Assembly (NCBI GenBank): GCA_020072655.1 | Contig: JAIQGH010000008.1 | Span: 1 to 50,883 of the forward strand | Direction: 5' to 3' | DNA from: Terriglobia bacterium | Lineage (GTDB): Bacteria > Acidobacteriota > Terriglobia > UBA7540 | DNA: 50,883 nucleotides | Part shown: positions 2,826-31,407 of the stretch, piece by piece | Numbering within the stretch: the first letter of the stretch is position 1 | Layout: every line of letters starts with the position of its first letter | The notes under the pieces: model-generated | The model's input: the letters and a program-made list of their open reading frames with translations, nothing else | What the model was told of the DNA's origin: nothing | Databases searched by the model: none | Translations under genes and position numbers: made by a program

Positions 2826-5800
2826 TCAGGCGGGACGAATAGTTTCGTGTAAGTCTGCTTTCCCCTCTGCTTGGGCATGGAGGTAATAGAGAACCGGCAC
2901 GGCCATGCGCGAGAGGAACGTCGAGGCAACCTCACCCGCCATCAATGAGACCGCCAGCCCCTGGAAAATCGGGTCGAATAAAATGACGAACGCGCCAACC
3001 ACCACCGCCGCCGCCGTGAGCAGCATGGGCCGGAAGCGCACGGCACCTGCATCCACGACAGCCTCCTCCAGCGGCATTCCCTGCTTGCGGCGCAACTCAA
3101 TGAAATCTACGAGGATGATGGAGTTCCTCACGATGATTCCCGCCCCGGCGATGAAGCCGATGATGGAAGTGGCGGTGAAGAACGCTCCCATCAACGCGTG
3201 CGCGGGCAGAATGCCCACCATCGTCAGCGGAATCGGCGCCATGATGACCAGGGGCACGCGGAAGGACTGGAACCACGCGACGACGATGACGTAAATCAGC
3301 ACCAGGACGACCGCAAACGCAAACCCGAGATCGCGGAACACTTCATAGGTGATGTGCCACTCGCCGTCCCACTTCATGGAGACCTTGTCGGTCATGAACG
3401 GCAAGTGCGTAGCGTAGCGCTCGATGCTGTAGCCCTCGGGCGCGCGCAGTTTGTCGAGCGATTGGGAGAGTTTCAGAATCGCATAGACCGGGCTCTCTTC
3501 ACTGCCCGCGACGTCGCCGGAGACGTAAACAACGCGCTTCAGGTTCTTGTGGTAAATGCTCTTCTCGATGGTGTCCTTTTCGATGCGGGTCAACTCGCTC
3601 AGCGGCACCAGCGCGCCTATGGCCGAGGCGACGCGAATCTCCCCGAGGTCGGTCAGGTCGGTCTTCTGCTCCCGCGGGAGTTCGAGGACGATGGGAACGT
3701 CCTCTTTCTCCTTCGGCTGGTGGGCCAGGCCCACTTCGGTGCCGCTCAGCGCCAGGCGTAGCGTGCTCGCAATCTGGTCGGCTGACACGCCGTTCAGCGC
3801 CGCCTTCTCCTTGTCCACAACGAAGCGGTATTGGGGCTGAGGGTCCTCGACCGTCCAGTCAACGTCCACGACGCCTGGTGTCTTCTTGAACTCGTCGCGG
3901 ATCTTCTCGGCGACGGCGATCTGCTGTCCATAATCGGGCCCGTAAACTTCCGCCACTAAGGTCTGATAGACCGGCGGCCCGGGAGGGATCTCCGCCACCT
4001 TCAGTCGCGCGCCATACTTCGCGCCAATCGGGTCGATGGCCAGGCGAACCCGCTTGGCGATGTCGTGACTCTGCGCGCTCCGCTCGCCCTTGGGAAGCAA
4101 GTTCACCTGAATGTCGGCTTCATTCGATGCCCGGCGCAGGAAATAGTGACGCACCAGCCCGTTGAAGTTGTAAGGCGCCGCGGTGCCCGCATAAATCTGG
4201 TAGTTGACGACTTCCGGCTCCTGCGCCACCCGCCGCGCAATCTCGCGCGCGACGCGCGCGGTCTGCTCGAGGGTCGTTCCTTCGGGCATGTCGATGATGA
4301 CCTGAAACTCGCTCTTGTTGTCGAAAGGCAGCATCTTGACGCGCACGATCTTAAGCAACGGCAGCGCCATGACGAGGAGGAACAGCATCACCACACCGAC
4401 CAGAAACATCCGACGCCTTTTGGGATCGCGGATGAGCGGGGTCATCGCCCGCCGGTAGAGGCGCGTCGTCCAGCCCTCTTCACCTTCTTCGCCCTTTTCG
4501 TGATGGCTCGTTCCATGGGAAAGCATGCGCAGCGCGGCCCACGGCGAGATAACAAAGGCAATTAGCAACGAGAACAGCATCGCCACCGAAGCGCCGACAG
4601 GGATCGGCCGCATGTAAGGACCCATCAGGCCGCCAACGAAGGCCATCGGCAGGATGGCGGCGATCACCGTCCAGGTGGCAAGCGTCGTGGGATTGCCGAC
4701 CTCGTCCACCGCCTCGACGGCGACGTCGGCGATGGGCCGACCCTTGTTCTCGGGGAGATGGAAATGGCGGGTGATGTTCTCGACCACGACGATCGCGTCG
4801 TCCACGAGGATGCCGATAGAAAAGATCAGCGCAAAAAGCGTCACGCGATTGAGCGTGTAGCCGTAGATGAAATACAGGAACAACGTCAACGAGAGCGTCA
4901 CCGGCACGGCCGCCAGCACAACCATCGACGACCGCCAGCCGAGCGCGAGCGCGATGAGGGCGGTTACGGAAAGGGTCGCGAGCAGCAGATGCTTCAGCAG
5001 TTCATTGGATTTTTCCTGCGCGGTCTCTCCATAGTTTCGCGTGACGGTGACCTGGACTCCCGCCGGGATCACGCTTCCCTTCAGGTCTTGGACTTTTTCA
5101 AGGACAAGTTCGGCCACGGTTACAGCGTTTTTCCCTTTGCGCTTGGCGACCGTCAGAGTCACGGCCGGAAGCTCACCCGTTCCGGCGGCGAGCTTCTCGC
5201 GCGCGCCGCGGCCGCGCCCGAAGAGGACGTAATTCGACGGCTCTTCCGGCCCGTCCCGCACTTCCGCCACGTCGCGCAAGTAGACGGGCCGCCCCGCGGG
5301 AACGCCCACCACCACGTCGCCAACCTCTTCAGCATTGCGCAGGAAATCGCCGGTCTCGACCGCGTACTCTTGATTGGCGGCGTCGAAGGCCCCGGATTGC
5401 AGCCGCTGGTTGGCCCGCTCGACGGCGGGCATGAGCGTGGCCGGAGCGACGCCGTAAGCTGCCATCTTCGACGGGCTGAGCAGCACGCGGATCTGCCGCC
5501 GCTCGCCGCCGATCAGTTGGGTCTCTGAAACATCATCGATGCTTTTGACCCGCCCCTCGAGCTCCGCCGCGATGCGGCGCAGTGTATACCCGTCGTAGCG
5601 ATCGCTGGAGAGCGTCACGGCGAGGATCGGCACTTCATCAATCGAGCGCGGCTTGATGAGCGGCTTGGAAGCGCCCGGGGGAATGAGATCGAAATGCGAA
5701 TACATCTTGTTATAGAGCTTGACGATCGAGTCTTCTTCGTTCTCGCCCACCTTGAAACGCACGATGGCCATGCTCAAGCCAGGGCGCGTCGTGGAGTAGA

Positions 5801-6062
5801 TGTATTCGACACCGGGGATTTCCCAGATCAACTTCTCCATCGGCGAGGTGACACGTTCCTCGACTTCCTGCGCCGTCGCGCCCGGCATCTCCACGAAGAC
5901 GTCCATCATGGGAACGATGATTTGCGGTTCCTCTTCGCGCGGCGTGAGGAGAATGGCGAAGGCGCCGAGGAGAACGGAAAACAGCATGGCCAGCGGCGTC
6001 AGCTTGGAATTGATGAAGTAGTGGGCCACGCGGCCGGCGAAGCCCAGCTTGCCTCGAGTCAT
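2826..6062 (-). CDS. RND-family efflux transporter permease
   Basis: Proton-driven inner-membrane pump of 1078 residues, the normal size for the AcrB/CusA/HAE-1 superfamily. It shows the first helix near residues 18-37, the first porter region ([19 protein letters not shown]), the TM4 motif [18 protein letters not shown] with the two adjacent aspartates used in proton relay, and the repeat half including the late [21 protein letters not shown] segment. Its start overlaps the adaptor stop by 4 bp (ATGA), indicating translational coupling. With the adaptor and TolC genes it forms a complete tripartite system. The metal-binding methionine triad of CusA was not evident, so the substrate is left open. 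Confidence 0.93.
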
Positions 6063-7210
6063 TGCTCCTCCACCCGCGCGCCGTCGCGCAGCCGGTCAAC
6101 TTGCGAGGTGGCGACGCGATCGCCTTCAGCAATTCCGGAGAGGATCTCCACACGTTCACCGAGCTCCTTGCCCGCCTTCACCAGCCGGTACTCGAGAACG
6201 CCTTCGGGGTTCGCCACAAAGACGCCTTCCAACTCGCCATGTTCGATTAGCGCGCTTCGGGGAACGGAAAGTCGCCGCTCCTCACCCACTGTAAAGCCGG
6301 CCGTTCCGTACTCGCCGGAGCGGCAGGCGCAATCCTTCGGCAAATCCAGCTTGACGAGGAAAGTGCGGCTCGCTACATCGGCCGCAGGAACGATCTCCGC
6401 AATGCGGCCCTGGAACTCGCCCCGCTCCGTGCGGATACGGACGGCCGTTCCCAAGCTCACCTTGAGGAGAAGCTGCTCGGGCAGGCTCGCTTCCAGCCGA
6501 TAGCGCGTCGTGTCTTCGACGGTCAGGAGTAGCATGCCGGGCATGACGACGGTGCCCGGGTCGACGGACTTCTCCGTCACCACGCCGTCAATGGGCGAGG
6601 TGACCCGCGAGTAGCTGAAGAGCGTCTGCGCGGAGGCTTGCTGCGAGCGCGCCTGCTCGCCGCGCGCTTCAATCTGTTTCTTCTTCGCCTCGACGGCGCG
6701 CTCATTGGCGAGCGCCGCTTTGTATTTCGTTTCTACATCGTCAAATTCCTGCCGGCTCACCGAATTCTTGGCGAGCAATCCCTGATAGCGCCGGTAACTG
6801 GCTTCGGCGAATTGCCGCTCCGCAGCGGCCGCTTGGATTGCCTGCTCGACTTCCGCCAGACCTTGCACGGCTTCCTCCACGCCGGCCTGCGCGGCGGCGA
6901 CCTGGGCGCGCGGGCCGCGGTCGTCAATCGTAGCCAGAAGCTGGCCGCGCCGGACGCGATCGCCCGCCTTGACGCGTACTTCCAGGACGGTCCCGCTAAT
7001 TTGCGTGCTCAGGACGCTGGTGGTTGCCGAGCGCACGGTCCCGGTCGCTTCGTAGAAATCCGGCAGCGGCTGAAGGCGCACAGTCTCAAGCCGCACGCCG
7101 CGGATCGTCTCGGGTTGCGCTTCCTTCGCCTTCTCCGTCGAGCCACACGCCGCGAACAAACCGCCTGCCAATAAGATGAGAATTCCGCCTGTGATCGTGT
7201 GCTTTTCCAT
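6059..7210 (-). CDS. RND efflux periplasmic adaptor lipoprotein (MFP/HlyD)
   Basis: Periplasmic adaptor of 383 residues that links the RND pump to the outer-membrane channel. The N-terminus has a lipoprotein signal with lipobox LFAAC (Cys22). The lipoyl/barrel half [20 protein letters not shown] is followed by a long alpha-helical hairpin (about residues 95-190) rich in Ala/Gln/Glu, then the second lipoyl half [18 protein letters not shown] and the beta-barrel. It ends in a 4-bp overlap with the pump gene. Upstream, between it and tolC, lies a 90-bp repeat element. Confidence 0.92.
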
Positions 7211-7249
7211 GGTTGCTTGTATCCCTTGACCTTAGGAATTCCGGTTAGT

Positions 7250-7340
7250 GGTAGCGCGGACCCCGATGCCGTTCATCGGGGTCCGCGGTTCTTCGCCATC
7301 CAGAGCCGCAGACCTCAACGGCGGAGGTCTGCGCTACCTT
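7250..7340. repeat. About 90-bp dispersed palindromic repeat, copy 1
   Basis: This intergenic element begins GGTAGCGCGGACCCCGATGC, contains a CCCCGATgccgttcATCGGGG hairpin and a second AGACCTC/GAGGTCT hairpin, and ends GCTACCTT. A nearly identical copy lies at 41923-42013. It sits inside an apparent operon between tolC and the adaptor gene, so it may shape mRNA stability between them. Confidence 0.8.
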
Positions 7341-7345
7341 GCTGC

Positions 7346-8722
7346 TTAGCGTGCGACCGCCTGGGAATCGGCAGCGAGTTCGCCCGTCGCCAATTCCAGG
7401 GCCGCAAATCCCAATCGGTAATCAAACATGGCATTCAAGAAACTCCTTTGCGCGGCCGTGCGCGCAGTTTCGGCGCGCAGCAGGTCAGTGATGGTCGCGA
7501 GCCCCGCCTCATAGCGGTTCTGAATGATGCGCAGGCTCTCTTCCGCCTGCGAGGCCGCCCCACGCGAGACATCCACGCGGTCGCGCGCTGTGGTCAGATT
7601 GAGAAACGCCTGGCGCACTTGCAGGCGAATTGCCGAGAGGAGCTGGCTCCGTAGCGCTTCTGCTTGCCTTTGGCGCGCCTGCGATTCCTTGAGCCGCGCA
7701 CGGTTCGAGCCGCCGTCGAAAAGGTTGAAGGTGAGCGTGGCGCCGAGCGCCCAGTTGTTCCCGCCGCGCGTCAGGAACGTCTGGTTGTCTTCCTCCCACG
7801 ACCCGAACAGGTTCACTTTAGGCAAGAATTCCGCGCGCGCCATGCGGACGCCGTTGGCCGCGCGCTGGTTGCCGATTTCGGCCTGCTGAAAATCGGGGCG
7901 CGCCTGAAGCGCCTTCGCCTGGCGCTCCTCGAGCATGCCGGCTTGGAACGTCACTTCGCCAAGCTGCCCTTCAACGGCCACCGGCGCTTCTTCCGAAAGG
8001 CCCATGGCGACGTTGAGCGCCGCGTCGGCCAAGGCGACGGCATTCTTGGCGCGGAGCAGGTTTTCCTGGGCTTGCGCGAGTTGCACCTGGGCGCTGAGCA
8101 GGTCCGACGGCACGGCCAGCCCTTGCTCCTGTCGCGCCTGCGCCCGCCCCAGATCCGCTTGCGCGGCGTCGACGGCGGCCTGCGCGACGCGGACGTTTTC
8201 ACGCGCCAGCAGACCATCGAGATAAGCCTGGATGACGTTGAAGATCACTTCCTGCCGCGTGCGATCGCCGGCGTGGGCCGCGCTTTTGGCTTCGAGCCGC
8301 GCATCGCGGACGCGTCGGGAGGTTTGACCCGCGTCCCATAGAGGCATCGAGGCGGTGAACTGCGTCCGGAAGTTATCCAGCGGCGGCGGAGTGTTCAGAA
8401 AGCCCAGCTCGAAGTTCTGCGCCGCGAACTGGCGCTGGGTGAGCAAGCTGCCGAAGACGTACACGGGATTATTGCCGCGCACCACGCCCTCGGAGAAGTC
8501 AAGGCGAGGCAAGCGCCCGGAGGCGGCGATGGTGATTCCCTCCTTCACCGCGTCGGCGTAGGCGTCGGCGGCCTGGACGGTCGGATTGTTCTTAAGGGCG
8601 ACGGCAACCGCGTCCTGAAGCGTCAGCGGCTTGGCGCCGCTCGTGGTCTGGGCGCGGATCGTCCCCATTCCGGAGATGAGAATCATCAGTGCAAGGAGAA
8701 GGGCCTGTCGGTATCTCATCAT
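7346..8722 (-). CDS. TolC-family outer membrane efflux protein
   Basis: Outer-membrane channel of 458 residues. The signal peptide runs to about residue 24 (ILISGMGTIRAQT). Two OEP repeats follow with the usual long coiled-coil helices, for example QAYLDGLLARENVRVAQAAVDAAQ and the later QVRQAFLNLTTARDRVDVSRGAASQAEESLRIIQNRYEAG (quoted as two short motifs: QAFLNLTTARDRV and NRYEAGLATI). It completes the tripartite pump with the downstream adaptor and RND genes. The start ATG overlaps the osmC stop by 4 bp, so it should be translated from the same message. Confidence 0.92.
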   Translation of the reverse strand: MMRYRQALLLALMILISGMGTIRAQTTSGAKPLTLQDAVAVALKNNPTVQAADAYADAVKEGITIAASGRLPRLDFSEGVVRGNNPVYVFGSLLTQRQFAAQNFELGFLNTPPPLDNFRTQFTASMPLWDAGQTSRRVRDARLEAKSAAHAGDRTRQEVIFNVIQAYLDGLLARENVRVAQAAVDAAQADLGRAQARQEQGLAVPSDLLSAQVQLAQAQENLLRAKNAVALADAALNVAMGLSEEAPVAVEGQLGEVTFQAGMLEERQAKALQARPDFQQAEIGNQRAANGVRMARAEFLPKVNLFGSWEEDNQTFLTRGGNNWALGATLTFNLFDGGSNRARLKESQARQRQAEALRSQLLSAIRLQVRQAFLNLTTARDRVDVSRGAASQAEESLRIIQNRYEAGLATITDLLRAETARTAAQRSFLNAMFDYRLGFAALELATGELAADSQAVAR

Positions 8723-9165
8723 GCAGCCTCGGCACTAGGTTGAATACTGATTTCCGGCAAGATCTCGAATGTGGTCTCGATTTTGGCGGTCTTCGAGATC
8801 ATTGCACCCACAGAGCAGTATTTCGTCTCGGAAAGATGAATGGCGGTCTTCACGGCTTCCGGATCGATTTGGCCGCGAAGCTTGTGCTTGATCTCGACGC
8901 GCGTAAAGTAGTTGGGAGGCTCCGCGCGCTGCTCTGCGCTCAACTCGATTTCGTACCCGGTCACGACCTGCCGCTTTTTGCGCAGGATGTTGATCACGTC
9001 GAAGGCCGTGCAACCGCCCAGCGCCAGCAACGCGAACTCGATAGGCTTAGGGCCGGTTTTCCCTTCCCCATCGTCCATCACGAAAGCGTGGCCGGTGCCC
9101 GACTCCGCGACAAATTGCCTTCCTGTTCCTTGAAGGGTGGTCAAACATAGTTTGCCTTGTATCAT
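8719..9165 (-). CDS. OsmC/Ohr-family thiol peroxidase-like protein
   Basis: Cytoplasmic OsmC-fold protein of 148 residues, normally reducing organic hydroperoxides or handling persulfides with two cysteines. Cys52 lies in LLALGGCTAFDVINIL and Cys117 in ETKYCSVGAMI, the canonical pair, and both are ordinary cysteine codons. The start MIQGKLCLTT is preceded by GAGGTG at a good distance. A longer frame to 9240 is possible but lacks a ribosome site. It is translationally coupled to tolC, an unusual pairing that ties efflux to peroxide or sulfane-sulfur stress. Confidence 0.88.
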   Translation of the reverse strand: MIQGKLCLTTLQGTGRQFVAESGTGHAFVMDDGEGKTGPKPIEFALLALGGCTAFDVINILRKKRQVVTGYEIELSAEQRAEPPNYFTRVEIKHKLRGQIDPEAVKTAIHLSETKYCSVGAMISKTAKIETTFEILPEISIQPSAEAA

Positions 9166-9197
9166 TACGCACCTCGGTCCCTGAACTCTCGAGTTGC

Positions 9198-9217
9198 CAA
9201 GGACGATCCGTTCCTTG
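9198..9217. promoter_or_regulatory. Short inverted repeat upstream of osmC
   Basis: CAAGGA and TCCTTG arms separated by 8 bp lie 33-52 bp before the osmC start. The size and place fit a repressor site, but no regulator can be assigned from sequence alone. Confidence 0.3.
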
Positions 9218-9281
9218 CAGTCATAAATGCAATTGCGCACGAAAGGTAACAGAAATTCCCGGAGGAAGATTCGGCCGCGGG

Positions 9282-9467: not shown

Positions 9468-10049
9468 TCAAACCCACCCGTAAGGAATGTTGGTCTTGTA
9501 CACGTGCCAGGAGAACAGCGCCGCCAATGATACAAGCAAACCTGTCAAGAGCGGGTGGAAATGCACGAACACTTGGAGGCCCAGCAGGACAATCGTAATG
9601 ACGAAGAATAGGCAAAAGCCAGCCAGCTTCTTGCGTCGCGCGCGCCACGGCCGAAGTTGCTCAACAACGGCAGCAGGTATTTCGTCGCTCTGAACCTGTG
9701 CGAGCAGGGCTTCAATCCGTGGTTGAATGGCAAAGTGGACGTACGAGAGAAGAAGGCTGAGGACCAGCAGCAAAAGGAGTTTTGCCAGGAGGACCGGGTT
9801 TGTGAAGAGCGAGCTCAGCGGCAGCCCTGACAGAAGGATCAGCAGGATGCCAGTGACGAGCGCCGTACTCTGGAAGACGAAGCATCGCCCAGCATTGCTT
9901 TTGATCAGGTTCTCAAAGTAACGGTCAACCACATAGGGGGCTTTTCCGAAGCGAAGCCGCTCGTTGACGATGATCAGGTTGTATAGGGGGGCCGCCATAA
10001 ACACCACCGTCAGGATGTGCAAGAACTTAACCGCGTTGTAAGCGCTCAT
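9468..10049 (-). CDS. DUF2269-like integral membrane protein
   Basis: A 193-residue protein with four or five hydrophobic helices: MSAYNAVKFLHILTVVFMAA at the N-terminus, FQSTALVTGILLILLSGLPL, LAKLLLLLVLSLLLSYVHF, and two helices after residue 140. The first-helix pattern KFLHILTVV and the overall layout resemble the DUF2269 family, whose role is not established. A charged cytoplasmic loop (about residues 112-142) separates the helix pairs. It sits 43 bp after the candidate selenoprotein gene on the same strand and probably belongs to that transcript. Confidence 0.7.
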   Translation of the reverse strand: MSAYNAVKFLHILTVVFMAAPLYNLIIVNERLRFGKAPYVVDRYFENLIKSNAGRCFVFQSTALVTGILLILLSGLPLSSLFTNPVLLAKLLLLLVLSLLLSYVHFAIQPRIEALLAQVQSDEIPAAVVEQLRPWRARRKKLAGFCLFFVITIVLLGLQVFVHFHPLLTGLLVSLAALFSWHVYKTNIPYGWV

Positions 10050-10092: not shown

Positions 10093-10443
10093 CTAGAACA
10101 TCACCACGGAGCCGCTCTCCTTCGTCCAACGCGCGAGATCGGTCATGTGCCCAATCTCCACCCCTTCGATGAGTTCTTCTTGGCCAAGGCCCCTGGCCGC
10201 GCAACACGTCGCTCAGGTATTCACTTTGACGCCCTTGGCAATGAGGTCTTTCAGCATATCACCCGCGTTGTAGTACCCCGTGGGGGTTTTCTGCCCCGCC
10301 TTGCCCGTAAGCACACCGTCGGCTAAAAGGAACAGGCTGACACTGACCCCGCTCGCCACCAGGGCCGAGGCGTACCGCAAAGCGTTGTACGCCTTCTCCG
10401 TCCCATAGGGCGGATCGTTCAATATGATCGTAAGCCTTTCCAC
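10093..10443 (-). CDS. DsrE-family protein with in-frame TGA: candidate selenoprotein
   Basis: A DsrE/DsrF-like small sulfur-transfer protein of 116 codons read through one TGA. The GTG start at 10443 has a GGGGAGG box upstream. The N-terminal part (VERLTIILNDPPYGTEKAYN ... GQKTPTGYYNAGDMLK) is typical of the family. Codon 77 is TGA (plus-strand 10213-10215). After it the same frame continues ATCCAARGLGQEELIEGVEI and GHMTDLARWTKESGSVVMF to a TAG, matching the conserved tail of relatives, which normally have a cysteine pair reading CGTC. Here that becomes U77-A-T-C80. DsrE-like selenoproteins have been reported from marine metagenomes, so readthrough as selenocysteine is the best explanation. 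Alternatives are a nonsense mutation or a sequencing error. The selA, selB, selC and selD genes are not in this window. Confidence 0.82.
10182..10198 (-). promoter_or_regulatory. Candidate bacterial SECIS stem-loop
   Basis: Directly after the in-frame TGA the message contains GGCCAGGGGCCUUGGCC, which folds into a GGCCA/UGGCC stem with inner G-C and G-U pairs and a GGC tip. The tip starts about 21 nt after the TGA and its first two bases are G. These distances and the tip G agree with the general bacterial SECIS rule. I judged this by eye and did not compute a folding energy. Confidence 0.6.
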
Positions 10444-10508: not shown

Positions 10509-10847
10509 CTACCCCACTGCCCGCGACGCAACTTCCCACTTCCGGGTGATCCGCACGCTTTGATCGAGATGCTCCGTCAGCACTTCGCGCATTAGATTGC
10601 ACGCCCGGATGATCTTGGGATTCGCTACCCGATAATAGACATTCAACCCTTCCCGCCGGGCTTTCACTACGCCGCGGGAACGGAGCAACGCGAGATGTTG
10701 CGAGACGTTCGCCTTGGGCAGCCCCAGGATTCGCACCAATTGCGCCACGGAGACTTCGCCGTGTCGCAAGGCATTCAGAATCTCCAGCCGCTTGGGGTTC
10801 GCCAGGGTCTTGCAGATCTCGGCGTGAAGGACAAAGAGTTCGTTCAT
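10509..10847 (-). CDS. ArsR/SmtB-family transcriptional regulator
   Basis: A 112-residue winged-helix repressor. The start MNELFVLHAEICKTLANPKR is the usual beginning of the family; the frame opens 17 codons further upstream within the promoter. The DNA-reading helix is in LGLPKANVSQHLALLRSRGV, followed by the wing KARREGLNVYYRV. Cys12 and Cys83 (helix alpha-5, RACNLM) are the only cysteines and could form a metal- or sulfur-responsive pair, though they are not at the positions known from SqrR/BigR/YgaV. It stands first in the transcript 65 bp before the DsrE gene, so it likely controls that gene and those after it. Confidence 0.9.
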   Translation of the reverse strand: MNELFVLHAEICKTLANPKRLEILNALRHGEVSVAQLVRILGLPKANVSQHLALLRSRGVVKARREGLNVYYRVANPKIIRACNLMREVLTEHLDQSVRITRKWEVASRAVG

Positions 10848-10879
10848 GATCGGTTGCCTGGTTGCGATGTTTCGAAACA

Positions 10880-10908
10880 AGGATACTTGATCCAGCATCC
10901 TTCGTCAA
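10880..10908 (-). promoter_or_regulatory. Sigma-70-type promoter with overlapping operator for arsR-dsrE
   Basis: On the minus strand TTGACG (10908-10903) and TATCCT (10885-10880) are separated by 17 bp, a strong match to a housekeeping promoter. A 20-bp imperfect palindrome at 10881-10900 (GGATACTTGATCCAGCATCC, 16 of 20 positions symmetric) covers the spacer and the -10 box, where an ArsR-family repressor would block RNA polymerase. Autoregulation is inferred. Confidence 0.6.
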
Positions 10909-31234: not shown

Positions 31235-31324
<90 letters not shown>

Positions 31325-31407
31325 GCAGCCTAGTGTAGCACGGTCAGCAACACAAAACGGGCTGCCCAGAGAGACACCATCAGCGGCAGCGCGGCCTGCC
31401 AACACTC

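Follow-up and report, generated by a model that had tools for sequence, protein, structure and literature searches.

DsrE-like selenoproteins were described from the Sargasso Sea in 2005, as two sequences (PMC1088965), and from Desulfovibrio vulgaris in 2006 (PMC1794560). A 2026 review lists the DsrE-like proteins, with Pfam family PF02635 and a UxxC site, among the bacterial selenoprotein families (PMC13188914), and selenoproteins in Acidobacteria were already known (PMC1794560, PMC12013277). The premise of an earlier sequence-only reading of this DNA, that DsrE-like selenoproteins exist in bacteria, is therefore well founded (PMC1088965, PMC1794560, PMC13188914). The gene described here lies in a window of 50,883 nucleotides, the whole stretch analysed, on contig JAIQGH010000008.1 of a Terriglobia bacterium (Acidobacteriota). 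It resembles the published DsrE-like selenoproteins in its PF02635 domain, in the predicted selenocysteine (Sec) at the first Cys of UxxC, and in a bacterial-type SECIS element just downstream. Since the DsrE-like family with PF02635 and UxxC is already listed, the window gene adds to a known selenoprotein family. In contrast to the published members, as these are described, the Sec sequences compared here come from Acidobacteriota, Chloroflexota, and a Nitrospirae MAG. They belong to a YchN-like subgroup found beside ArsR, which the published members may share. Literature searches returned nothing for YchN with DsrE, nor for DsrE with ArsR and SQR. As far as the cited papers show, the taxonomic range and the gene context of DsrE-like selenoproteins are new.

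The DsrE/YchN-like gene occupies positions 10096 to 10443 of the minus strand. The strand was absent from the sequence-only reading and was assigned by frame comparison; the plus-strand frame over 10093-10443 is meaningless, and the minus frame gives a 116-residue DsrE protein. The GTG start is at 10443, with GGAGG about 9 nt on its 5′ side by direct reading of the sequence. Codon 77 is an in-frame TGA (10213 to 10215, minus strand) in the place of the first Cys of the family CxxC, and 39 sense codons separate it from the TAG at 10095-10093. The product matches Pfam DsrE PF02635 at 85.6 bits (gathering cut-off 22.7; E 3.5e-24) over residues 3-116. This match runs across the TGA and bears out the claim that the frame continues for 39 codons, with the conserved family tail, up to a TAG. 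The active-site stretch of the product is KVNT-U-A-T-C-C-AARGLGQEELIEGVEIGHMTDLARWTKES. Cys80, encoded by TGT at 10204 to 10206 (minus strand), is the presumed resolving cysteine of U-x-x-C and is invariant in 17 sequences. The gene is an example where standard annotation would truncate a protein ahead of its active site. Judged from sequence, it almost certainly encodes a true DsrE/YchN-family selenoprotein with Sec at codon 77.

By sequence, Escherichia coli YchN (1jx7, E 1.8e-22) is the nearest protein of solved structure, with TusD (2d1p_A) next. The structure predicted from a 17-sequence alignment has a pLDDT of 94.4, and its best PDB match is again 1jx7 (TM 0.92), followed by DsrEFH and TusBCD. 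In the predicted structure, residue 77 closes a beta strand and the following residues open a helix. The window protein and YchN are equal in length and fold, with 42% identity in the structural alignment, and the fold and the position of CxxC, both as in 1jx7, place the protein in the YchN-like subgroup. The two differ in that YchN has Cys where the window protein would have Sec. The TusD/DsrE sulfurtransferase subunits (2d1p, 2hy5) have the same fold, and U77 aligns with a TusD Cys that is presumably the active-site Cys of TusD. In contrast, TusD has no counterpart of the second active-site Cys in the sequence alignment. The window protein reaches 42.4 bits against the TusD equivalog TIGR03012, below its cut-off of 89.25, and no TusBC neighbours were seen beside the gene.

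Homologues were sampled from 61 related genomes and 396 genomes of the phylum, and by a search of named genomes. In the first two samples the CxxC site is mostly CGSC, CGTC, or CGGC, which agrees with the C-x-x-C that the sequence-only reading had given for relatives, and a few homologues have a single in-frame TGA exactly at the first-Cys codon. The named-genome search added TGA carriers from four Acidobacteria MAG records, three Chloroflexi, and one Nitrospirae MAG; two of the four Acidobacteria records are the same sequences as genomes found earlier. TGA occurs at the identical column in 11 non-identical sequences including the window, and TGC or TGT occurs there in 42 sampled relatives. 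The alignment thus confirms that the TGA occupies the column of the conserved Cys in DsrE homologues. Over codons 78-116, the differences between the window gene and four Sec relatives are concentrated at third codon positions (5/2/18 at positions 1/2/3 against L072, and 4/4/17 against another), which indicates that the tail is maintained as protein. This bias, together with the same TGA column in 10 other non-identical relatives, places the TGA beyond chance. A true stop at this codon would leave a decaying pseudogene or a truncated 76-residue protein. TGA is indeed a normal stop in the source genome, and the DsrE/YchN gene is absent from the only further genome of this genus that was searched. 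However, the 10 other TGA sequences cover at least three phyla (Acidobacteriota, Chloroflexota, and one Nitrospirae MAG) and keep the tail, the gene has no frameshift or second stop, and truncation would take away the whole active site, so that a true stop is very unlikely.

The selenoprotein reading is also supported by a SECIS-like hairpin, GGCCAGG-GGC-CTTGGCC, at 10182 to 10198 of the minus strand. The sequence-only reading had placed a stem with a GGC tip about 21 nt after the TGA. The hairpin and its GGC loop are real, but 21 nt is the distance to the beginning of the loop, and the stem begins after 14 nt. The published model of bacterial SECIS elements comprises a loop of 3-9 nt, a stem of 4-16 bp, a G among the first two loop nucleotides, a distance of 16-37 nt from the UGA, and a minimum free energy of at most -7.5 kcal/mol (PMC13188914). 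The window hairpin, with a 3-nt GGC loop, 7 bp, 21 nt, and -9.4 kcal/mol, obeys these rules, and the proposed SECIS-like stem is upheld. Because 8.5% of all TGAs in the window pass the SECIS rules, and 2.2% still do so when the loop must follow at 18-23 nt, the hairpin supports the selenoprotein reading and is insufficient alone. In each of the 11 TGA members, the loop follows the TGA at 19-21 nt, and the hairpin is strong in most of them and mostly missing in Cys members. At this position the best hairpin averages -9.7 kcal/mol across the TGA members and -1.35 kcal/mol across the Cys members (Mann-Whitney p 5e-8; the test treated related sequences as independent and was designed when the stem was already known). 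Relatives with the same TGA and no SECIS-like stem, which were named beforehand as evidence against the reading, were not seen; the hairpin is kept throughout and is weakest in L077 and L084. The positioned-hairpin test was substituted for one on the whole 45-nt folding energy, which, against synonymous recodings, gave no separation of Sec from Cys members. For the window gene alone, the synonymous-codon hairpin test gave p 0.10, and an Rfam search at the locus found no SECIS family.

In a tree, the window gene falls together with four Acidobacteriota Sec members (99/93 support), to which it is 66-73% identical. These five members, clade 1, have a common GGC-loop hairpin. The tree contains a second Sec clade of three Chloroflexi and two Acidobacteriota members, and the hairpin of this clade has a 6-nt CGGGNU loop and a stem of 6-7 bp at a nearly equal distance from the TGA. 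Its stem shows covariation, with an internal pair changed from C-G to U-A and an end pair from A-U to G-C, both sides changing in each; the covariation score was equalled by 28 of 500 shuffles, which is moderate support. The presence of two Sec clades with, by their sequences, differently built SECIS hairpins is a new detail. An AU test of a single clade of Sec members gives p 0.23, which is compatible with one origin as well as with two. The Acidobacteriota genome G404 has two copies of the DsrE/YchN gene (L062, L065), one with Sec and one with Cys, which fall in different clades.

The source genome, an assembly of 209 contigs that is 96% complete, contains the machinery for selenocysteine. 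Profile searches found selA (569.7 bits), selB (364.9), and selD (385.3), all above cut-off, and the tRNA-Sec (selC) was found at 67.7 bits with anticodon tca. These genes lie on contigs other than that of the window, and the search for selA, selB, selC, and selD that the sequence-only reading had proposed as a check found the full set. The selD gene (L018, G000:C204:29592-30515, minus strand) has its own in-frame TGA in AAG-U-AAKLSP, which we take to be the active-site position of SelD, with a hairpin downstream. This is an independent sign that UGA is decoded as Sec in the organism. The replacement of the conserved Cys by Sec, as first proposed from the letters, is thus supported by the TGA on the Cys column, the hairpin, and the sel gene set. 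Another genome of the same genus also has a tRNA-Sec, as do several genomes of the family. In the source genome, formate dehydrogenase-like matches have no in-frame stop, and a search for the selenoprotein SQR family NF049943 found no member. A second Rfam tRNA-Sec match, in the window at 31237-31326 (50.4 bits), is an ordinary tRNA-Ser (tga; 31235-31324); its score is above the gathering cut-off, and it is a false-positive trap in genome surveys.

Alternatively, the UGA could be translated as another amino acid, Trp or Cys, through a suppressor or code reassignment, with Sec machinery playing no part. This is highly unlikely, as the full sel gene set and tRNA-Sec are present, the hairpin is tied to the TGA members, and the TGA lies precisely on the redox Cys. 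In addition, TGA serves as a stop elsewhere; it ends 10 of the 22 large ORFs in the window and is therefore not a reassigned sense codon. A sequencing or assembly error, with TGC or TGT read as TGA, can practically be dismissed: the window TGA comes from a single assembly, but both the TGA at this codon and the hairpin recur in independent assemblies of other organisms.

The gene encoding the putative selenoprotein is the second in a minus-strand series of ArsR, Sec-DsrE, DUF2269-like, OsmC-like, TolC-like, HlyD-type, and RND pump genes. The ArsR-family regulator (10509 to 10898) is directly upstream, and a DUF2269-like integral membrane protein (9468 to 10049; 26.7 bits, slightly short of the cut-off, 28) is directly downstream. 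The OsmC-like gene (8719 to 9240) possibly belongs to the same transcription unit, and the genes for the TolC-like outer-membrane protein, the HlyD-type fusion protein, and the RND pump follow downstream (2826-8722). Of the 11 Sec members, 7 have an adjacent ArsR gene and 6 have a gene for an SQR-like flavoprotein nearby; the latter also occurs near several Cys members. The SQR-like neighbours in other genomes score below the NF049943 cut-off and have no TGA. A DUF2269-like gene is directly 3′ in three Sec loci, namely the window, L032/L073, and L033/L074, the last two with partners 65-71% identical. In a Chloroflexota locus (L084:6366-7472), a rhodanese and metallo-beta-lactamase fusion lies just downstream of Sec-DsrE and resembles persulfide dioxygenase/sulfurtransferase fusions.

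The ArsR regulators beside Sec-DsrE (the window copy and those of L072-L075 and L086) have a common Cys near the N-terminus, in HAxxCK/Q. In a comparison with SqrR-type persulfide-sensing ArsR proteins, aimed at their sensing cysteines, the window ArsR matches 13ct/6o8l at 45.9 bits, and its Cys does not coincide with the one Cys in the aligned part, the rest of the 13ct/6o8l protein lying outside the alignment. The HAxxCK/Q Cys possibly represents a different sensor site.

In the proposed mechanism, SelB with Sec-tRNA-Sec would recognise the hairpin just 3′ of the UGA, and Sec would be inserted at position 77. The resulting site, U-A-T-C, would stand where the beta strand ends and the following helix begins. 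Sec77 would be the nucleophile and Cys80 the likely resolving thiol; Sec77 would either take up and hand on sulfane sulfur as a persulfide or selenylsulfide, or reduce a disulfide or polysulfide. The adjoining ArsR regulator may control Sec-DsrE, and sulfide-oxidation or membrane partners may act alongside. The gene context, with ArsR and an SQR-like or DUF2269-like gene, suggests sulfane-sulfur or thiol redox chemistry; from fold and neighbours, our best inference for the chemical function is sulfane-sulfur transfer or disulfide/polysulfide reduction. The chance that Sec77 has a sulfane-sulfur role in sulfur transfer appears about even. It is conceivable, though rather doubtful, that the YchN-type DsrE fold acquired Sec on two or more occasions, as the different SECIS loop size and register of the clades may indicate, and in every case inside a sulfide/polysulfide module under ArsR control in which the selenol would be a sulfur carrier beside sulfide:quinone reductase or a DUF2269 membrane partner.

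With the window gene and its relatives, a selenoprotein family that has been sparsely sampled gains an Acidobacteriota/Chloroflexota branch with good support. The surrounding ArsR, SQR-like oxidoreductase, and DUF2269 genes point to sulfide/persulfide chemistry and provide a lead on the function of the DsrE-like selenoprotein family.
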